Under the pieces are notes generated by a model. That model saw only the letters and a list, made by a program, of their open reading frames with translations. It was not told the origin of the DNA and made no database searches. A DNA stretch of 35,600 bases, from NCBI GenBank assembly GCA_036504675.1, contig DASXUT010000162.1, forward strand, positions 1 to 35,600, given 5' to 3'. Each line of letters opens with the position of its first letter. Position 1 is the stretch's first letter. This DNA comes from Bacillota bacterium. GTDB lineage: Bacteria; Bacillota; Sulfobacillia; JAJYWN01; JAJZPE01. A program made the translations under genes and the position numbers. Below, piece by piece: positions 8,769 to 35,600 of the stretch.

Positions 8769-9566
8769 ATGTACGACCTCAGGATCGTCGTTGAAGAGGT
8801 CCGCGGTTTCTGTGACCTGCCGATGCGCCCCGGCGACTACATCGAAGTCAAGGGCGGCCGGATCTGCATCCCGGATGGTGGGTTCTTCTGCCTCTGGGCT
8901 TTGCAGGCCCTGATGCCGATGATTCCCGTCAAACAGCGGCGGGTGGTCGAAGACAATGATTGGCTGCCGGATACGAGCCGGATGGTCTGTCCGGACCCAG
9001 ACGGCCAGGTCATCTTCAGGTTCGAGCGGGTGGCGGCCGATGAAGCGCCGGGCGCGAATGGGGGCGGGAACACGCTCGGGAACGGCGGCCCGACCGCGCC
9101 CAAGACCGCGCCCCGCCGCGAGCCGCCGAAGCGCCTGCTGGTCGACGAGCAGGCCTGTTCCGGCTGCCGTTCCTGCGAGTTGGCCTGCAGCTATGCCCAT
9201 GAGCAAGTCTTCAGCGGCGAGATGGCCCGGGTCGTCGTGACCAAGGCCGAGGCCGCCGGGATCGATCGGCCGACCGTCTGCCGGCAATGCGGGGCCGCCC
9301 GCTGCGTCCAAGCTTGCCCAGAGGGCGCCCTGTCGCGGGACCCCGGGACTCACGCCATCCTCGTCGACGGCCGTCGCTGCACTGGTTGCGGCGACTGCGC
9401 CGAGGCGTGCCCCTTCGGCGCCGTCAGGCTCTCGCCGGCCGGCGGCCGGGCCTTGATCTGCGACCTCTGCGGCGGGTCTCCGGCCTGCGTCGCCGAGTGC
9501 GCCACGGGAGCCCTGACCTACGGCCGGGCCGGTGCCCGGGTCGCGGCCGGGGGTGGCCGAAGATGA
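8769..9566 (+). CDS. TIGR04076 domain fused to a four-cluster ferredoxin (AOR electron-transfer subunit)
   Basis: This is a 265-residue two-part protein. Residues 1-88 form a TIGR04076 domain, a small Cys-containing family of unknown function, with Cys15, Cys41 and Cys74 at its conserved positions. A Gly/Pro/Ala-rich linker follows at about 89-120. Residues 122-265 form a DmsB/HycB-like ferredoxin with 16 cysteines in four groups: 130/133/136/140, 171/174/179/183, 204/207/210/214 and 231/234/240/244. This is enough for four [4Fe-4S] clusters. I prefer the ATG at 8769 because AAGGTGG lies 7 bases upstream; TTG 8748 and ATG 8763 are worse placed. Its stop overlaps the AOR start (ATGA), so it is very probably the electron-carrying partner of that enzyme. 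Confidence 0.85.
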   Translation: MYDLRIVVEEVRGFCDLPMRPGDYIEVKGGRICIPDGGFFCLWALQALMPMIPVKQRRVVEDNDWLPDTSRMVCPDPDGQVIFRFERVAADEAPGANGGGNTLGNGGPTAPKTAPRREPPKRLLVDEQACSGCRSCELACSYAHEQVFSGEMARVVVTKAEAAGIDRPTVCRQCGAARCVQACPEGALSRDPGTHAILVDGRRCTGCGDCAEACPFGAVRLSPAGGRALICDLCGGSPACVAECATGALTYGRAGARVAAGGGRR

Positions 9567-11488
9567 GCGGATCGAGCCACGGGTACGCCGGCCGCATCCT
9601 TCGCATCGACCTGGACCGCCGGGTCTGGCGGGCCGAGCCGCTTGACCACGGCGCCGCCCGGCGTTTCATCGGCGGGCGGGGGTTCAACGTCGCCACGCTT
9701 TACGCCGAGGTGGCCCCGCACACGCCGGGGCTCGACCCGCAAAACCGGCTCTGCTTCGGAGTCGGACCGCTGGTCGGGACCCTTTTCTCCGGGGCCTCCC
9801 GGTTCAACGTCAGCGCCATGTCCCCCCAGACGGGCATCCTCGGGGATTCCAACGCCGGCGGCTTCTTCGGCCCCGAGCTGAAGTTCGCCGGCTGGGACCA
9901 GGTCATCCTGGAAGGCCGGGCCGACTCTCTCATTTACCTGCTGGTGACCGAGGACGGGGTCCAGTTCCGGCCGGCCGACCATTTGCGCGGCCTGGATGTC
10001 TGGGCCACCGACGAGGCCGTCCGCCATGAGCTGGACGACGACCGCGCCCAGGTCGCCGTGGCCGGTCCGGCCGCGGAGAAGGGGGTCAAGTTCGCCGGGA
10101 TCTTCACCAATCTCGTGCGGGCGGCCGCCCGAACGGGGATGGGCACGGTCATGGCGGCCAAGAACGTGAAGGCCATGGCCGTCCGCGGCCGACGGCCGGT
10201 CACGGTGGCCGACCCGACCCGGTTCATGGACCTCGTCCGGACTCTGAACCAGGAGATCAAAGACCACGACCAGTATCAACCCCGCATCGCCCTGGGGACC
10301 ACGCGGCTCCTGGGCTCGCTGAACGAGATGGGCGCCCTGTGCGTCAGGCACTACCAAGTCGGGCGGTTCGAAGCCGCGTCCGAGGTCTCCGGGGAGACCC
10401 TGGCCGGCCGCTACCGGGTCAAGGGAAAGAGCTGCTTCGCCTGCAACATCCCGTGCAGCCGATTCTTCCGCGTGGGCGACGGCAGCTTCGCCGGCCTGGC
10501 CAGCGAGGGCCCGGAGTTCGAGGGGCTGGCCGGCTTCACCTCCAAGCTCGGTCAGACCGACCTGGCCCTAGGCCTGGCGGCCATCGACAAGTGCAATCGT
10601 TACGGCCTGGACGTCATCGGCACGGCCGAGGTCATCGCCTGGGCCATGGAGCTGAGGCAGCGCGGCCTGATGAGCGACCGCGAGGCCGACGGCCTCGAAC
10701 TGACCTGGGGGAATGGCCCGACCATTCTGGCCCTGATCGACAAGATCGCCGTTCGGGAAGGCTTCGGCGACGTCCTCGCCGACGGTGTCCTGGCGGCGGC
10801 CCGGAAGGTCGGGCGGGGCAGCGAGTCTCTGGCCATGCAAGTCAAGGGGCTGGAATTCTTCCAGGCCGATCCGCGCGGGCTCAAGGGCTACGCCCTCGGC
10901 CTGGCCGTCGCCAGCCGGGGCGGGGACCACCTGCGCTCGGAGCCGTCCTTCGAATTCAGCGAGGATGCCCCGGCCGGTCAGCGGCGCTTCGGCGCCGCCG
11001 AGTCGGCCTTCCGCCTGGAGCACAAGGGCAAGGGCCGGCTGGTCAAGCATTTCGAGGAACTGTGCGCCCTGGCCGACTGCCTGGAGGCATGCAAGAACAC
11101 CATCGTCAACATGGAGGTCCTGCCCTTCGACCGGGCGGCCGAAATCCTGCGGGCGGCCACCGGCCTGGACTTCGACGGCAACCAGGTCCAGCAGGCCTGC
11201 GAGCGCCTGATCAACCTGGAACGCCTCTACAATGCCAGGGAGGGTCTGAGCAGAGCCGATGACCGTCTTCCCGAACGCTTCCTGAAGGAGCCCCTGCCCG
11301 CCGGAAGCGGGCCCTCCACCGGCAGCGTCGTTGAGTTGGAGCCGATGCTCGACGAGTATTACTCGGCCCGCGGCTGGGATCTGGCGACCGGCCTGCCTGC
11401 CCCGGAGAAGCTCGCCGAACTCGGGCTCGGCGAAGAAGCCCGCCAGGTCGAGCTGAAGCGGACAGGCCGCGGACGAATCGGCCGCTGA
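9563..11488 (+). CDS. aor: Tungsten-type aldehyde:ferredoxin oxidoreductase
   Basis: This 641-residue enzyme would oxidise aldehydes to carboxylic acids, or run in reverse, using a bis-pterin tungsten or molybdenum centre and ferredoxin. The N-terminal AOR domain opens GYAGRILRIDLDRR and has the FIGGRGFN segment that starts the pterin-binding region. The cluster cysteines are Cys291, Cys294 and Cys298 (C-x2-C-x3-C) plus Cys510 in ADCLEAC. Their positions are close to those of Pyrococcus furiosus AOR (288/291/295/494, from memory). The start is fixed by the 4-base ATGA overlap with the ferredoxin gene; the open frame extending back to 9287 is only readthrough inside that gene. Substrate preference cannot be read. 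A hairpin at 11551-11577 lies 63 bases past the stop. Confidence 0.93.
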   Translation: MSGSSHGYAGRILRIDLDRRVWRAEPLDHGAARRFIGGRGFNVATLYAEVAPHTPGLDPQNRLCFGVGPLVGTLFSGASRFNVSAMSPQTGILGDSNAGGFFGPELKFAGWDQVILEGRADSLIYLLVTEDGVQFRPADHLRGLDVWATDEAVRHELDDDRAQVAVAGPAAEKGVKFAGIFTNLVRAAARTGMGTVMAAKNVKAMAVRGRRPVTVADPTRFMDLVRTLNQEIKDHDQYQPRIALGTTRLLGSLNEMGALCVRHYQVGRFEAASEVSGETLAGRYRVKGKSCFACNIPCSRFFRVGDGSFAGLASEGPEFEGLAGFTSKLGQTDLALGLAAIDKCNRYGLDVIGTAEVIAWAMELRQRGLMSDREADGLELTWGNGPTILALIDKIAVREGFGDVLADGVLAAARKVGRGSESLAMQVKGLEFFQADPRGLKGYALGLAVASRGGDHLRSEPSFEFSEDAPAGQRRFGAAESAFRLEHKGKGRLVKHFEELCALADCLEACKNTIVNMEVLPFDRAAEILRAATGLDFDGNQVQQACERLINLERLYNAREGLSRADDRLPERFLKEPLPAGSGPSTGSVVELEPMLDEYYSARGWDLATGLPAPEKLAELGLGEEARQVELKRTGRGRIGR

Positions 11489-29402: not shown

Positions 29403-30833
29403 TCAGCTTTGGAGCGGCCCCTGCCATTGCTCCGGCGTGTAGGCCGGCCTGGGGCCCGGGGCCATCGCCGGCCGCCCCTGCCACCGGGCGCCCTTGACCG
29501 CTTCCCGCCCGATCCCGGGCACCCGGTCGAGAAGGTCGACGAGGTCAGGATGGCCGATCTCCTGGAGCTCGTAGCGGACGCGGACGGCGGGCCGGTTGAT
29601 CTGGACCAGCCGCCGCAAGTCGATCGGCGTGGCGATGACGACGACCTCCGCCGGGCAGGCGTTGATCGTCTCCTGCAGGTCGTGGATCTGCTGGCCGTTG
29701 TAACCCATGGCCGGAAGGAGGGTGCCGATCTTCGGGTACTTCTCGTAGGTCCGGGCGATGGTCCCGACGGCGTAGGGCCGCGGGTCGATCAGCTGGGAGG
29801 CCCCATACTTGCGGGCGGCGATGACCCCGGCCCCGTACTGCATCTCACCGTGGGTGAGGGTCGGGCCATCCTCGATGACCAGGGCCCGTTGACCCCGAAT
29901 GGGCCCGGGGTCGTCGACATAGATGGGTGAGGCGGCGTCGACGATGACGGCATTGGGGTTGACCCGGATTGAGTTGCGGCGGACAGCCTCGATGCCTTCG
30001 CGGTCGGCCGTCTCGACCTTGTTGATAATGACCACGTCGGCCATCCGGAGGTTCGTCTCTCCCGGGTGGAAGGCGACCTCGTGGCCCGGCCGGTGCGGGT
30101 CGACCAGGACGATGTGGAGATCAGGGACGTAGAAGGGGATGTCGTTGTTGCCCCCATCCCAGATGACCACGTCGGCTTCGCGTTCGGCCGCCCTCAGGAT
30201 GCGCTCATAGTCGACGCCGGCGTAGACGATGACCCCGCGGTCGATGAGCGGCTCGAACTCCTCGCGCTCCTCGATGGTGCAGCGGTTGACCTCGAGGTCC
30301 TCGTAGTTGGCGAAGCGTTCGGCGGCTTGGCTCAGGAGGTTGCCGTAGGGCATGGGGTGGCGGACGGCGACGACCCGATGCCCGAAGTCCCTCAGGATGT
30401 CGGCCAGCCGGCGGGTGGTCTGGGACTTGCCGACGCCCGTCCGGACGGCGGTGACGGCGACCACTGGGCGGTTGGCCCGGAGCATCGTCGTCCGCGGGCC
30501 CATCAGGCGGAAGTCGGCCCCGGCCGCCAGGACCTGGGAAGCCCGGTGCATGACGTAATCGAAGGGGACGTCGCTGTAGGCGAAGATGACCTGCTCGGCC
30601 CCGGTCCGCTCGACCAGCTCGGTCAGGTCGGACTCGGGGTAGATGGGGATGCCCTCCGGGTACCCATGACCGGCCAGTTCCGGAGGATAGACCCGGCCCT
30701 CGATGTCCGGGATCTGGGTGGCCGTGAAGGCGATCACCTGGTAGTCCGGATTGTCGCGGAAGTAGACGTTGAAGTTGTGGAAGTCACGACCGGCGGCCCC
30801 CATGATGATGACCTTCCTGACCTGATCTGGCAA
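29403..30833 (-). CDS. Cyclic 2,3-diphosphoglycerate synthetase-like P-loop protein
   Basis: This 476-residue protein resembles the archaeal enzyme that makes cyclic 2,3-diphosphoglycerate from 2,3-bisphosphoglycerate and ATP. I place the start at TTG 30833, because GGGGG lies 9 bases upstream and the protein then opens MPDQVRKVIIMGAAGRDFHN, the usual family start. The same frame stays open for 133 codons upstream without coding character. Residues 1-120 form a Rossmann-like domain. The nucleotide loop VRTGVGKSQTTRR lies near 130-142, and DVVIWDGGNNDIPF follows as the Walker B region. Bacterial homologs exist in several thermophiles and anaerobes, but their product is not established, so a different P-loop kinase or GTPase activity is possible. 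Confidence 0.8.
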   Translation of the reverse strand: MPDQVRKVIIMGAAGRDFHNFNVYFRDNPDYQVIAFTATQIPDIEGRVYPPELAGHGYPEGIPIYPESDLTELVERTGAEQVIFAYSDVPFDYVMHRASQVLAAGADFRLMGPRTTMLRANRPVVAVTAVRTGVGKSQTTRRLADILRDFGHRVVAVRHPMPYGNLLSQAAERFANYEDLEVNRCTIEEREEFEPLIDRGVIVYAGVDYERILRAAEREADVVIWDGGNNDIPFYVPDLHIVLVDPHRPGHEVAFHPGETNLRMADVVIINKVETADREGIEAVRRNSIRVNPNAVIVDAASPIYVDDPGPIRGQRALVIEDGPTLTHGEMQYGAGVIAARKYGASQLIDPRPYAVGTIARTYEKYPKIGTLLPAMGYNGQQIHDLQETINACPAEVVVIATPIDLRRLVQINRPAVRVRYELQEIGHPDLVDLLDRVPGIGREAVKGARWQGRPAMAPGPRPAYTPEQWQGPLQS

Positions 30834-31186
30834 GGCGAAGAACCCCCTTTGAACAACGGCTGCGGCGGCCCGCCCAGGCGGCGCCGTGCTGCTTCGTTTA
30901 GTATCCTCCGGCGAAGAGGCCTTATGCGACGGCTGGTTTAGGGCTCTTGGCACCAGGTCGCCGGCGCGCCCAAGAACCCGGTATGGAAGAAGGAAACCGC
31001 ACCCTCGGAGCCGAATAGAATGGTCACCGGAAGGGCCGTCGCTCCAAGCGTGGCGGCGCCCGTTCAGCAAGAATCCCCTGGGGGGTGAGCCGGCTTGTAC
31101 AGGCGGCTCACAGTCTGGCCCTGGTCCTCCGACGGGCCTCCGAGGGCCGGTCCAGAACGTGTGAGAAAGGTGCAGGTAGATGAGGT

Positions 31187-31215
31187 AAGGCGGGCGAAGC
31201 CCGCCTTCTTGTGTT
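31187..31215 (+). terminator. Hairpin in the HdrA leader region (1)
   Basis: A perfect 9-bp stem (31187-31195 with 31199-31207) has a 3-base loop and is followed by CTTGTGTTC. It could end a short plus-strand transcript or act as an attenuator of the HdrA gene, whose start is 113 bases further on. Confidence 0.5.
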
Positions 31216-31244
31216 CTCAGGTTCACATTCACAAGCGCGGGGAA

Positions 31245-31280
31245 AAAGGCGAGCTATGAAGGCTCGCCTTTGGCATTTTC
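31245..31280 (+). terminator. Hairpin in the HdrA leader region (2)
   Basis: A perfect 10-bp stem (31245-31254 with 31262-31271) has a 7-base loop. It ends 49 bases before the HdrA start, with TGGCATTTTCC on the 3' side. On the minus strand its 3' side is also T-rich (CTTTTTCC). Its arms resemble those of the preceding hairpin, so the two may be a duplicated element. Confidence 0.5.
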
Positions 31281-31319: not shown

Positions 31320-34300
31320 GTGGCGAACGAACCGGTCCAGTTTTCCGAGAACCCGGCGGCTGGCGAGACAGGTCCGGTCCCGGCCCGAGATGAGGCGACC
31401 GCGACCGGCGCGGCCACCGGGGCCGTCCTCGTCGTCGGCGGCGGCATCGCCGGCATTCAGGCATCCCTGGACCTGGCCCAGGCGGGGTACCTGGTCCACC
31501 TGGTCACCCGAGACCCCTCGATCGGCGGCAAGATGGCCCAACTGGACAAGACCTTTCCGACCAACGATTGCTCCATGTGCCTCCTGGGTCCGAAAATGAC
31601 CGACTGCCTCAACCATCCGAACATCGTCCTGCACACCCTGGCTGAGGTCACCGGGCTGAGCGGCGAACCGGGACGCTTCCAGGCTGAGGTCCGGAGCCTC
31701 CCGCGCTACGTCGACCTGGCCGCCTGCACCGGCTGCAGCGATTGCGAGGCCGCCTGCCCGGTGGAACTCAGCGACGCCTTCAACCAAGGGCTGAGTAAGC
31801 GCAAGGCCATCTACCGCTTGTTCCCCCAGTCGAGCCCGAACAAGTACGCCATCGACAAGCGGGGCAGGTCGCCCTGCCGAATGGCCTGCCCCTCGGGCAT
31901 CAACACCCAGGGCTTCATCAGCCTCATCGCCCGCGGCAAGTACCGCGAGGCCTGGGAGTTGATCCGCCAGGAGATGCCCTTCCCGATCATCTGCGGGACC
32001 GCCTGCCATCACCCCTGCGAAGGGGTGTGCCAGCGGGGCGAGGTCGACGACCCGATCGCCATCTCCCGGCTGAAGCGCTTCGTCGGCGACCACGTCCTCG
32101 GCCACCTCACCGAATTCTACCCGGAGGGCGTCCCGGTGCCGCCCCGTCTTCATCCAGAACAGGTGGCCGTGGTCGGCTCAGGGCCGGCCGGGCTGGCCGC
32201 CGCCTATCACCTGCGGCGGCGTGGGTATGGGGTGACCATCTTCGAGGCCCTCGGCGTGGCCGGCGGGATGATGCGGGTCGGGATCCCCGAGTACCGGCTG
32301 CCCAAGCGGCTCGTCGAGGCGGAGATCGACCAGATCCTGAAGACCGGCATCGAGCTGCGCACGGGCGTGGCGATCGGCCGCGACCTCGACGTCGACGACC
32401 TCTTCGCCCAGGGCTTCGGGGCCGTGCTCCTGGCGGTCGGGGCCCACGCCCCGCAGAAGATCGGCGTCTACGGCGAGGATCTCGGCGGGGTCTTCCATGG
32501 GGTGACCTTCCTCCGCCAGGTCAACCTGGGTCAGCGGGTGGCCATCGGGGCCCGAGTCGTCGTTATCGGCGGCGGCAACACGGCCATCGACGCCGCCCGG
32601 ACGGCCGTCCGGCTGGGGGCCGAGGAGGTCACCGTGGCCTACCGTCGCTCCGAGGCCGAAATGACGGCCCTCTCCGAAGAGGTCGAGGAAGCCCGCGAGG
32701 AAGGCGTCCGTTTCGAGTTCCTGACCTCGCCGATCCGGATCATCGGCTCGGCCGAAGAGCGGGTCGAAGGCATCGAGTGCCTGCGCAATGCCCTCGGGGA
32801 AACCGGTACTGACGGGCGGCGCCGCCCCGTTCCGATTCCTCGCTCCGAGTTCATCATCCCGGCCGAATCGGTGATCATCGCCGTCAGCCAGGCCCCCGAC
32901 CACACCTTCCTCCATGACACGACCCTCGAGACGACCCGCGGCGGGACGATCATCGCCGACCAGTTGACCCTGGCCACCAAGCTCCCCGGGGTCTTCGCCG
33001 CCGGCGACGCGGTCAGCGGCCCGGCCACCCTGGTCGAGGCGGCGGCCGCGGGCAAGGAGGCGGCCGAGTCCATCCATCGCTACCTGCAGGGGCAGGACCT
33101 GCGGGCCTGGCGCACGCGGCGGCCGCGCCCCGAGGACGCCAGGCGGCTGGAGATCAGTGTCTTGGGGACCCAGCGCCAGAAGCGCGAGGCCCTGCCCCGC
33201 CTCGGGGCCGCCGAGCGGCGTCGCTCCTTCGCCGAAGTCGTCGGAGGCTACACCGCTGAGCGGGCCTCCGCCGAGGCCCAACGCTGCCTGGCCTGCGGCG
33301 GCTGCTCCGAGTGCCGGCAGTGCGAGGCGGTCTGCAAGCCCGTGGCCATCCGCCACGACCAGACGGGGAGCACGACCAGCCTCGAGGTGGGAGCGGTGAT
33401 CCTCGCCCCCGGCTTCTCCCTGACCGACCCGCGAACCCTCGGCGAGTACGGTTATGGCCTTTACCCCAACGTCATCACCGGGCTCGAGTTCGAGCGGCTG
33501 CTCAACGCGACCGGCCCGACTCGCGGCGAGCTCAGGCGCCCCGGCGACGGCGGCCATCCCCGGCGGATCGCCTTCATCCAGTGCGTCGGCTCCCGCGACC
33601 CCGGCCGCGGCAACCCCTACTGTTCCTCGATTTGCTGCATGTCCTCGACCAAGGAAGCGACCATCGCCAAAGAGCACTCCCCGGACTGCGAGAGCACGGT
33701 CTTCTACCTCGACCTGAGGGCCCAGGGGAAGGGCTTCGACCGTTACGTCCAGTCGGCCAAGGACGACTACGGGGTGCGGTACCTGAGGGCCTTCGTCTCC
33801 GGCCTGAAGGAAGACCCGAAGACCGGCGACCTGACCATCCGCTACGCCGCCGACGGCCAGATCAAGGAGGAACGGTTCGACCTCGTCGTCCTGGCCACCG
33901 GCCTGAAACCACCGGCCGGGGCGCGCCAACTGGCCGACACCTTCGGCATCGACCTGGACCGACACGGCTTCGCCGATTGGGACAAGACGTTCCCGGCCCG
34001 AGCCAATAAAGGAGGGATCTTCGTGGCCGGAGGCTTCACCGGACCACATGATATCCCGGAGACGGTGATGGGCGCCGGCGCCGCGGCGGCCGAGGCCAAC
34101 TCGCTCCTGGCCCTCGCCCGCGGGACCCTGACCCGGCCCCGCACTTACCCGCCGGAGCAGGAGGTGTCCGGCAAGACCCCGCGGATCGGCGTCTTCGTCT
34201 GCCGCTGCGGGATCAACATCGCCTCGGTGGTCGACGTCCCGACGGTGGTCGCCCGGGCGGCCAAGGCCCCCGGCGTGATCCATGCCGAGGAGTTCCTCTT

Positions 34301-35600
34301 CACCTGCTCCCAGGACTCACTCAAGAAGATCCGCGAGACCATCGCCGAGAAGGACCTCAACCGGGTGGTCATCGCCTCGTGCACCATCAGGACCCATCTC
34401 CCGCTATTCCGCGATACGCTACGAGAAGCCGGGCTGAACCAGTACCTTTGCGAGATGACCAACATCCGCGAGCAGTGCTCGTGGGTCCACCGCACCGACC
34501 CGGTGGCGGCCACGGCCAAGGCTGTCGACCTGGTCAAGATGGCCGTCGCCAAGGCGGCGACCCTCGAACCCCTGACCACCTTCCCGGTCCCCGTGGTCAA
34601 GCGGGCCCTGGTCGTCGGCGGCGGGCTGGCCGGGCTGCAGGCCTCACTATCACTGGCCGGAATGGGCTTCGGGGTGACCCTCCTCGAGCGGTCGGCGGCC
34701 CTCGGCGGGAACCTGACCAACCTGGCCTGGACCCTCGACATCCCGGACGTCCCGGCCTACCTCGATGAGCTGTTGATGCAGGTCGACCGGCAGCCGGGGA
34801 TAACCGTCCTGACCAACGCGACGGTCAAGGACTTCCATGGTCACGCCGGGCACTTCACCACCCGGGTCGAGGTGGCCACGGGCGATGGCCCCGGCGGGGG
34901 CGGGCGGACGACCACCGACATCGAGCACGGGGTGGTCGTCGTGGCCACCGGCGGGCGCGAGCTGGTCCCCGATGAGTACCTCTATGGCGAGGACTCGCGG
35001 GTCCTCACCCGGCTTGAGTTCGAGCGGCGCCTGAAGCGCTCCGGTGAGCCGATGGTCCCCGTCCGGCGGGCCGTCTTCATCCAGTGCGTCGGGTCGCGCC
35101 AGGCCGGCCGCCTCTACTGCAGCCGAACCTGTTGCGGCGCGGCGATCAAGGACGCCTTGTTGCTCAAGGAGGCCGACCCGGCCTGCGAGACCTACGTCCT
35201 CTACCGCGACGTGCGGGCCTATGGCCTGGCCGAGGAGTACTACCGGTTGGCCCGTGAGCGCGGGGTGGTCTTCATTCGCTACGAGGAGACCGCCAAACCG
35301 GTGGTCAGGGCAACCCCGTCGCAGCTGGACGTGACCGTGGACGACGCCGACAGCGGCCGGGCGATGACCCTCGGGGCCGACCTCGTCGTCCTGGGCGCGG
35401 CGACCCTCCCCTCGGAGGGCACCGCTGAGGCCGCCCGGGCCTTCAAGCTGCCGATGACCGAGGATGGGTTCCTGGCGGAATTGCACGCCAAGCTCGGCCC
35501 GGTCGACTTCCCCAGCCAGGGCCTGTTCTTGTGCGGATTGGCCCATTCCCCCAAGTCGATCCCCGAGACCATCCTGCAGGCCCAGGCGGCCGCTTCGCGG
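31320..35600 (+). CDS. hdrA: Giant HdrA / GltD-NfnB / HdrA fusion flavoprotein (C-terminus outside the window)
   Basis: The frame is open for 1427 codons from GTG 31320 (GGGGGGTG 6 bases upstream) to the window end. Domains in order: an Ala/Thr-rich tail (1-33); an HdrA FAD fold with G40-x-G-x-x-G and Cys84/87/96; a ferredoxin motif Cys136/139/142/146; a GltD/NfnB-type iron-sulfur head (Cys186/190/225/229/233/237); a GltD FAD fold (G286-x-G-x-x-G); an NAD(P)-binding fold (G417GGNTAID); an HdrA cysteine cluster (656-672); and HdrA cysteines 755/768/772/773. A second HdrA module starts near 957 (C961-x-C963), with FAD motif G1100GGLAG and Cys1256/1267/1271/1272. Normal HdrA has about 650 residues. 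It probably links NAD(P)H, ferredoxin and an HdrB- or disulfide-type acceptor by flavin-based bifurcation. The domain calls are strong; the reaction is inferred. Confidence 0.9.
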   Translation, partial: MANEPVQFSENPAAGETGPVPARDEATATGAATGAVLVVGGGIAGIQASLDLAQAGYLVHLVTRDPSIGGKMAQLDKTFPTNDCSMCLLGPKMTDCLNHPNIVLHTLAEVTGLSGEPGRFQAEVRSLPRYVDLAACTGCSDCEAACPVELSDAFNQGLSKRKAIYRLFPQSSPNKYAIDKRGRSPCRMACPSGINTQGFISLIARGKYREAWELIRQEMPFPIICGTACHHPCEGVCQRGEVDDPIAISRLKRFVGDHVLGHLTEFYPEGVPVPPRLHPEQVAVVGSGPAGLAAAYHLRRRGYGVTIFEALGVAGGMMRVGIPEYRLPKRLVEAEIDQILKTGIELRTGVAIGRDLDVDDLFAQGFGAVLLAVGAHAPQKIGVYGEDLGGVFHGVTFLRQVNLGQRVAIGARVVVIGGGNTAIDAARTAVRLGAEEVTVAYRRSEAEMTALSEEVEEAREEGVRFEFLTSPIRIIGSAEERVEGIECLRNALGETGTDGRRRPVPIPRSEFIIPAESVIIAVSQAPDHTFLHDTTLETTRGGTIIADQLTLATKLPGVFAAGDAVSGPATLVEAAAAGKEAAESIHRYLQGQDLRAWRTRRPRPEDARRLEISVLGTQRQKREALPRLGAAERRRSFAEVVGGYTAERASAEAQRCLACGGCSECRQCEAVCKPVAIRHDQTGSTTSLEVGAVILAPGFSLTDPRTLGEYGYGLYPNVITGLEFERLLNATGPTRGELRRPGDGGHPRRIAFIQCVGSRDPGRGNPYCSSICCMSSTKEATIAKEHSPDCESTVFYLDLRAQGKGFDRYVQSAKDDYGVRYLRAFVSGLKEDPKTGDLTIRYAADGQIKEERFDLVVLATGLKPPAGARQLADTFGIDLDRHGFADWDKTFPARANKGGIFVAGGFTGPHDIPETVMGAGAAAAEANSLLALARGTLTRPRTYPPEQEVSGKTPRIGVFVCRCGINIASVVDVPTVVARAAKAPGVIHAEEFLFTCSQDSLKKIRETIAEKDLNRVVIASCTIRTHLPLFRDTLREAGLNQYLCEMTNIREQCSWVHRTDPVAATAKAVDLVKMAVAKAATLEPLTTFPVPVVKRALVVGGGLAGLQASLSLAGMGFGVTLLERSAALGGNLTNLAWTLDIPDVPAYLDELLMQVDRQPGITVLTNATVKDFHGHAGHFTTRVEVATGDGPGGGGRTTTDIEHGVVVVATGGRELVPDEYLYGEDSRVLTRLEFERRLKRSGEPMVPVRRAVFIQCVGSRQAGRLYCSRTCCGAAIKDALLLKEADPACETYVLYRDVRAYGLAEEYYRLARERGVVFIRYEETAKPVVRATPSQLDVTVDDADSGRAMTLGADLVVLGAATLPSEGTAEAARAFKLPMTEDGFLAELHAKLGPVDFPSQGLFLCGLAHSPKSIPETILQAQAAASR

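Follow-up and report, generated by a model that had tools for sequence, protein, structure and literature searches.

The window, by which we mean the whole stretch of 35,600 nucleotides analysed here, comes from a Bacillota genome (3.28 Mb in 199 contigs, completeness 96%, contamination 1.8%) and ends in a plus-strand gene in which a GltD/NfnB-like module is embedded in a tandem HdrA protein. We refer to the gene as HdrA-GltD-HdrA and to its two HdrA modules as HdrA1 and HdrA2. The frame runs from a GTG start at position 31,320, preceded by the Shine-Dalgarno-like sequence GGGGGGTG, to position 35,600 and encodes at least 1427 residues with zero stops. The protein is truncated because contig C162 terminates exactly at base 35,600, within the open frame. 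The uninterrupted frame claimed in a preliminary description of the window was thus recovered, open up to the contig end. A complete orthologue (L046; 84% identity, about 1503 to 1506 residues) was found in genome G001, which represents another genus. It ends in a 2×[4Fe-4S] ferredoxin domain, the part that is missing from the window copy.

Domain order and insertion point

The window protein was aligned to HdrA of M. thermolithotrophicus (PDB 5odc). Residues 37-181 align to HdrA 147-291, residues 662-965 to HdrA 293-596, and residues 953-1124 to HdrA 3-174. The breakpoint lies between HdrA 291 and 293, showing that GltD sits between both motifs of the HdrA inserted ferredoxin. This agrees with the preliminary description, which had placed the insertion within HdrA at the second ferredoxin motif. 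The GltD unit located by Pfam and NCBIfam spans approximately residues 184-595; it comprises the iron-sulphur head, a flavin adenine dinucleotide (FAD) fold and an NAD(P) fold, with HdrA sequence on both sides. Together with the 5odc alignment, they bear out the proposed order of HdrA, GltD, the rest of HdrA and a second HdrA.

The two HdrA modules differ in content. HdrA1 is without the usual N-terminal Fe-S domain, which instead heads HdrA2, and HdrA2 is without an inserted ferredoxin. All HdrA segments were found by the 5odc alignment, spread over the two modules; the C-terminal ferredoxin was seen in orthologues only. C87 of HdrA1 corresponds to Cys197 of M. thermolithotrophicus HdrA, and the E356/K409 signature of a bifurcating flavin is present twice, as E725/K778 and E1235/K1277. 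The GltD and HdrA cysteine ligands are invariant across 16 full-length relatives. The three FAD folds and many cysteine groups attributed to this single chain could thus be assigned to located domains and ligands (Table 1). The protein missed the curated cut-offs of the NCBIfam HdrA models (NF040770, 859.5 vs 1100 bits; NF041778, 633.1 vs 1400; NF041891, 594.9 vs 1300). Because these models describe single-module HdrA, the shortfall limits naming as those equivalogs and not homology.

AlphaFold models were made of each half of the chain separately. Residues 30-945 gave a predicted local distance difference test (pLDDT) score of 89.1 and a predicted template modelling (pTM) score of 0.84, and residues 946-1427 gave a pLDDT of 88.9 and a pTM of 0.76. 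In Foldseek, the first model matched HdrA across the insertion (TM score by target 0.93, 8rvu_a) and NfnI/NfnB (TM by target 0.81-0.82), while the second matched HdrA (TM by query 0.88, 5odc_A). The GltD and HdrA parts are intact folds by this preset test.

We considered whether the window copy could stem from faulty assembly or binning, or be an operon-gene duplicate in decay, as the contig stops within the frame and provides no downstream context. This is contradicted by orthologues in several genomes. The region upstream of the window gene is syntenic with the L046 locus, and the ratio of nonsynonymous to synonymous rates (dN/dS) between the window gene and this orthologue is about 0.26 (0.117/0.456), indicating purifying selection. 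The frame contains no stops, the folds are confident, and the protein is 54% identical to the paralogue in its own genome. Chance or artefact was therefore ruled out by the 84% orthologue in another genus, the dN/dS and the folds, and we regard decay or misassembly as very improbable.

Table 1. Features of the HdrA-GltD-HdrA gene and its neighbour in the window
Feature	Position	Strand	Remarks
HdrA-GltD-HdrA gene	31320..35600	+	Stopless frame, truncated by contig end; about 70-76 codons absent vs orthologue L046
HdrA1 TrxR-like FAD domain, first half (residues 36-130)	31425..31709	+	Includes C84/C87
HdrA1 inserted ferredoxin, first CxxCxxCxxxCP motif	31710..31862	+	C136, C139, C142, C146
GltD iron-sulphur head	31863..32114	+	C186, C190, C225, C229, C233, C237; Pfam Fer4_20; ligands invariant in family alignment
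GltD/NfnB FAD and NAD(P) folds (residues 266-595)	32115..33104	+	Pfam, NCBIfam, Foldseek
NAD(P)-binding motif VIGGGNTAIDAARTAVRLGAEEVTVAYRRSEAEMTALS	32562..32675	+	Includes YRR expected for NADPH; alignment
Second HdrA ferredoxin motif	33270..33389	+	C656, C659, C662, C665, C668, C672
HdrA1 second half	33390..34154	+	E725 and K778 = E356 and K409, bifurcating-flavin signature
HdrA2 N-terminal Fe-S domain	34155..34589	+	C961, C963, C996, C1021
HdrA2 TrxR-like FAD domain	34590..35600	+	Without inserted ferredoxin; E1235, K1277; C-terminal ferredoxin beyond contig
Divergent neighbour	29403..31232	-	No Pfam match; not an Hdr/Mvh/Met partner; syntenic with orthologous locus L046

Between the two divergent genes, positions 31245-31271 form a perfect inverted repeat (AAAGGCGAGC...GCTCGCCTTT) that resembles a terminator. 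Farther upstream, positions 9287-11488 (plus strand) encode an aldehyde:ferredoxin oxidoreductase (AFOR_N, AFOR_C). An Rfam search of the whole window gave zero matches.

Gene context and ancestry of the orphan clade

The three-part build itself is already known, and the partnerless context of the window gene is the less expected part. HdrA of M. thermoacetica (162.8 kDa, residues to 1487) has an extra ferredoxin/TrxR-like domain interrupted by GltD, followed by a second HdrA part (PMC9430772). NADH oxidation by this protein with benzyl viologen is reported at 190 U/mg (PMC9430772); the preliminary description, which knew of no biochemical assignment, is thus not supported on this point. According to Mock et al. 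2014, as cited in PMC9430772, this HdrA is a subunit of the hexaheteromeric HdrCBA-MvhD-MetVF methylene-tetrahydrofolate (methylene-THF) reductase; the content of that paper and of Appel et al. 2021 was drawn from PMC9430772, PMC13391211 and PMC7325909. GltD/NfnB insertions in archaeal HdrA have also been described earlier (PMC9012536, PMC12054007). A scan of genome contigs from bacteria and archaea detected at least 583 related stretches, and a novel architecture was ruled out by these and by the literature. The 80 relatives retained come from Bacillota, Desulfobacterota, Chloroflexota and other groups, archaeal metagenome-assembled genomes (MAGs) among them. Within the Thermincola phylum, 299 genomes were sampled and 41 have a near full-length copy.

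In a first census, 73 of 77 full-length members had at least one partner gene (hdrB, hdrC, mvhD, metV, metF, Flx, Mvh or FrdA-like) within 5 kb. The members without a partner were L072, which has hdrC-like and Flx-like genes farther upstream, and L046, L047 and L049, all of the window clade. Partners were also absent at seven further loci of this clade, and all 31 loci added after the first census have partner genes. Twelve such orphan paralogues from 10 genomes, the window gene among them, make up a single clade. We found no hdrB, hdrC, mvhD or metVF within 5-6 kb of the orphan loci; the operon of the Moorella type is absent upstream in the window and from both flanks of the complete orphan loci. 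Thus, the expectation that such partners lie nearby holds for most of the family and fails for the clade of the window gene. No MvhD-family gene was found on the orphan contig in the 10 orphan genomes except G060 and G061, where it lies more than 160 kb away, and HdrB-family genes on orphan contigs followed the same pattern among the matches listed. Outside near relatives, no neighbouring partner gene was found to be shared across orphan loci.

The orphans form one branch, both with FastTree (11 rows, Shimodaira-Hasegawa (SH) support 100) and with IQ-TREE (12 rows, SH-like approximate likelihood ratio test (SH-aLRT) 100). Within their sister group (SH-aLRT 86), a Thermincola-like lineage retains the hdrCB-hdrA-mvhD-metVF operon. 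One loss of linkage to the operon partners is the simplest reading of this tree.

An operon-type copy is also present in nine of the ten orphan genomes, with met genes seen in seven. That of G030 is accompanied by hdrCB and acs genes before its contig ends, and that of G150 is cut by contig ends. The window genome carries its second copy on C18, as hdrC-hdrB-hdrA-mvhD-metV-metF beside acs and carbon monoxide dehydrogenase genes (Wood-Ljungdahl operon). This genome also has a split version (L044; G000:C120, 1161-5983), in which HdrA-GltD (about 900 residues) and HdrA are encoded by two genes and an mvhD-like gene lies upstream; a split version is likewise found at G002:C40. On C74, an NfnA-like gene (DHODB_Fe-S match) adjoins a GltD-like gene, and replacement of Nfn by the orphan is hence unsupported.

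Other members of the family occur in different surroundings. At L055, L062, L110, L083 and L118, HdrA-GltD-HdrA adjoins a fumarate-reductase-like flavoprotein, an FrhB-like protein, MvhD and extra HdrA-type genes, and L055 and L062 also carry sucC-like genes. Judged by gene content, these loci may encode a bifurcating fumarate reductase of the soluble kind. At L054, L056, L065 and L172-L178, the gene adjoins FrhB-like and AsrA/AsrB (Flx-like) genes, often with metVF too. An in-frame TGA at the HdrA Cys197 position (LDKTFPTNDCAM-U), a candidate selenocysteine codon, was seen in 18 loci, mostly of Desulfobacterota (L076, L078, L079, L085, L087, L089, L090, L093, L097, L098, L099, L102, L109, L119, L122, L127, L128 and L130). 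PDB 9sfi carries X at this position too.

Coenzyme motif, constraint and a possible electron path

Direct use of NAD(P)H by the window protein, as proposed in the preliminary description, is likely. A YRR motif follows the second Rossmann strand in all five solved Nfn/Stn chains that were aligned (9n5u, 9bov, 4ylf, 8oh5 and 5jca). The additional phosphate group of NADP+ is bound by a pair of conserved arginines in P. furiosus NfnI (PMC6405883), and we infer that these are the YRR arginines. The window protein has YRRS, and YRR is present in 9 of 11 readable orphans. The exceptions are the second orphan copies L165 (G148:C61) and L167 (G150:C8), with FRD and FKG. At this position, SLE or CLE stands in the operon copies of the orphan genomes and in each of the 12 Moorella-genus copies, which would fit the reported NADH use of Moorella HdrA. 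As far as the motif can tell, NADPH and not NADH is therefore the probable electron donor of the window protein. Because YRR also occurs in several outgroups and in the Thermincola-like, operon-bearing sister group, it is probably ancestral, and the change would lie in the Moorella-type lineage; this rules out NADPH preference as an orphan-specific gain. R326 aligns with the N5-flavin arginine R187 of T. maritima NfnB. It is not decisive, because StnC has the same arginine at a non-bifurcating flavin.

We compared substitutions in three species pairs with both paralogues. The GltD/HdrA change ratios were 0.52, 0.68 and 0.75 in the orphans, in which GltD changes less, vs 1.0-1.24 in the operon copies of the same pairs. 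The pooled odds ratio was 0.56 (p 9e-6, which is optimistic because substitutions and sites were treated as independent), showing that orphan substitutions are shifted from GltD towards the HdrA parts. In the C-terminal ferredoxin region, 18 of 98 sites differ in the orphan pair G060/G061 vs 3 of 87 in the operon pair. This shift favours, and does not prove, an enzyme that would depend most on its NAD(P)H module and less on HdrBC docking.

We therefore favour, with a probability of roughly 0.45, a Moorella-type HdrA from the hdrCB-hdrA-mvhD-metVF lineage that lost its operon partners once and was kept singly beside the canonical copy, where it would act as an NADPH-input hub without stable HdrBC partners. 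In such a protein, NADPH would bind the GltD module and pass a hydride to the GltD FAD. Electrons would then move singly via the GltD [4Fe-4S] clusters and the split ferredoxin of HdrA1 to the HdrA1 flavin (E725/K778). HdrA1 and HdrA2 would form an internal HdrA pseudo-dimer, and electrons could cross to HdrA2 (N-domain cluster, FAD with E1235/K1277) via clusters shared by both halves. HdrA1, with the Cys197 equivalent C87, and HdrA2, with the N-terminal Fe-S domain, would complement each other; complementation has been reported for the tandem HdrA of anaerobic methanotrophic archaea (ANME), in the opposite order (PMC9012536). Exit, or entry in reverse, may occur via the C-terminal 2×[4Fe-4S] ferredoxin domain and a diffusible ferredoxin-like carrier. 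The preliminary description saw a self-contained hub, which the ligands and both E/K signatures would allow, although bifurcation is not demonstrable from sequence. A stronger version, which we consider doubtful, is a stand-alone NADPH:ferredoxin oxidoreductase, carrying three flavins and roughly eight [4Fe-4S] clusters, that works without HdrBC, MvhD or hydrogenase and bifurcates or confurcates between the HdrA flavins.

Several observations weigh against the favoured explanation. The window locus could be read on its upstream side only, because C162 stops short of the gene's end. HdrB-family and MvhD-family genes are present, unlinked, in each of the ten orphan genomes and could supply partners in trans. 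The orphans have also retained the C-terminal ferredoxin and all HdrA cysteines, which would be expected of a protein that still docks HdrC-like partners. Finally, YRR alone would be no proof of NADPH use and looks ancestral, not gained by the orphans.

Subunit exchange is a serious rival, albeit one we rate as rather unlikely. The orphan would replace the operon NADH-type HdrA in the HdrBC-MvhD-MetVF complex, so that one methylene-THF reductase core could use NADPH or NADH. The co-resident operon-type copy in nine orphan genomes, the retention of all cluster ligands and the C-terminal ferredoxin, and the sister lineage still in the hdrCB-mvhD-metVF operon are in line with this. However, the orphan HdrA parts and C-terminal ferredoxin diverge faster than those of the operon copies and GltD slower, which is unexpected if the same partners were docked. 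Less likely still is a role for the orphan in some other complex, respiratory or biosynthetic for instance, together with HdrB/HdrC- or MvhD-like proteins encoded elsewhere in the genome. The window genome could supply them, with 18 CCG-family matches, three MvhD-family genes and, on C161, another HdrA accompanied by HdrB and MvhD, but there is no co-localisation in any orphan locus and no neighbour common across families.

What the giant HdrA does in the acetogenic methylene-THF reductase is a standing question, because that complex is difficult to purify and its second electron acceptor is likewise in question. A natural lineage that retained nothing but this subunit, with HdrBC, MvhD and MetVF no longer linked, gives a less complex enzyme for purification and a way to examine directly how the HdrA-GltD-HdrA core works by itself. 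In addition, co-resident paralogues with differing coenzyme motifs provide a testable NADPH/NADH contrast in one genome.

Comparison with known systems

The transhydrogenase subunits NfnB and StnC share with the window protein the GltD/NfnB fold, the YRR motif and the arginine R326 (NfnB R187). They differ in their partners: the window chain is without an NfnA or StnA/B partner domain, and Pfam and NCBIfam detected no NfnA-type [2Fe-2S] plus second FAD domain in it.

Type III HdrA and HdrA9-11 of ANME-1 and Bathyarchaeota also have GltD/NfnB within the HdrA inserted ferredoxin, and direct NAD(P)H use was proposed for them (PMC12054007; PMC9012536). The archaeal HdrA set spans 302-1182 residues, whereas the window chain adds a second HdrA module. 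Type II tandem HdrA of ANME (HdrA3/4) resembles the window protein in having two modules that are complementary in the N-terminal Fe-S domain and Cys197 (PMC9012536, PMC12054007). In contrast to Type II, the order is reversed in the window protein, with the Cys197 equivalent in the N-terminal half and the Fe-S domain in the C-terminal half, and GltD is inserted.

Moorella HdrA has the same order as the window protein, with a ferredoxin and TrxR-like HdrA half, the GltD insertion, the rest of HdrA and a second HdrA. The likeness extends to the C-terminal ferredoxin, the pair of E/K flavin signatures, the single NAD(P)H site and a size of about 1490 residues, with 52-53% identity between the window protein and the copies of the Moorella genus. 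The Moorella gene lies in an hdrCB-hdrA-mvhD-metVF operon and NADH oxidation is reported for its product, whereas the window clade was found without linked partners. The coenzyme motif is CLES or CLEK in Moorella and YRRS in the window protein.

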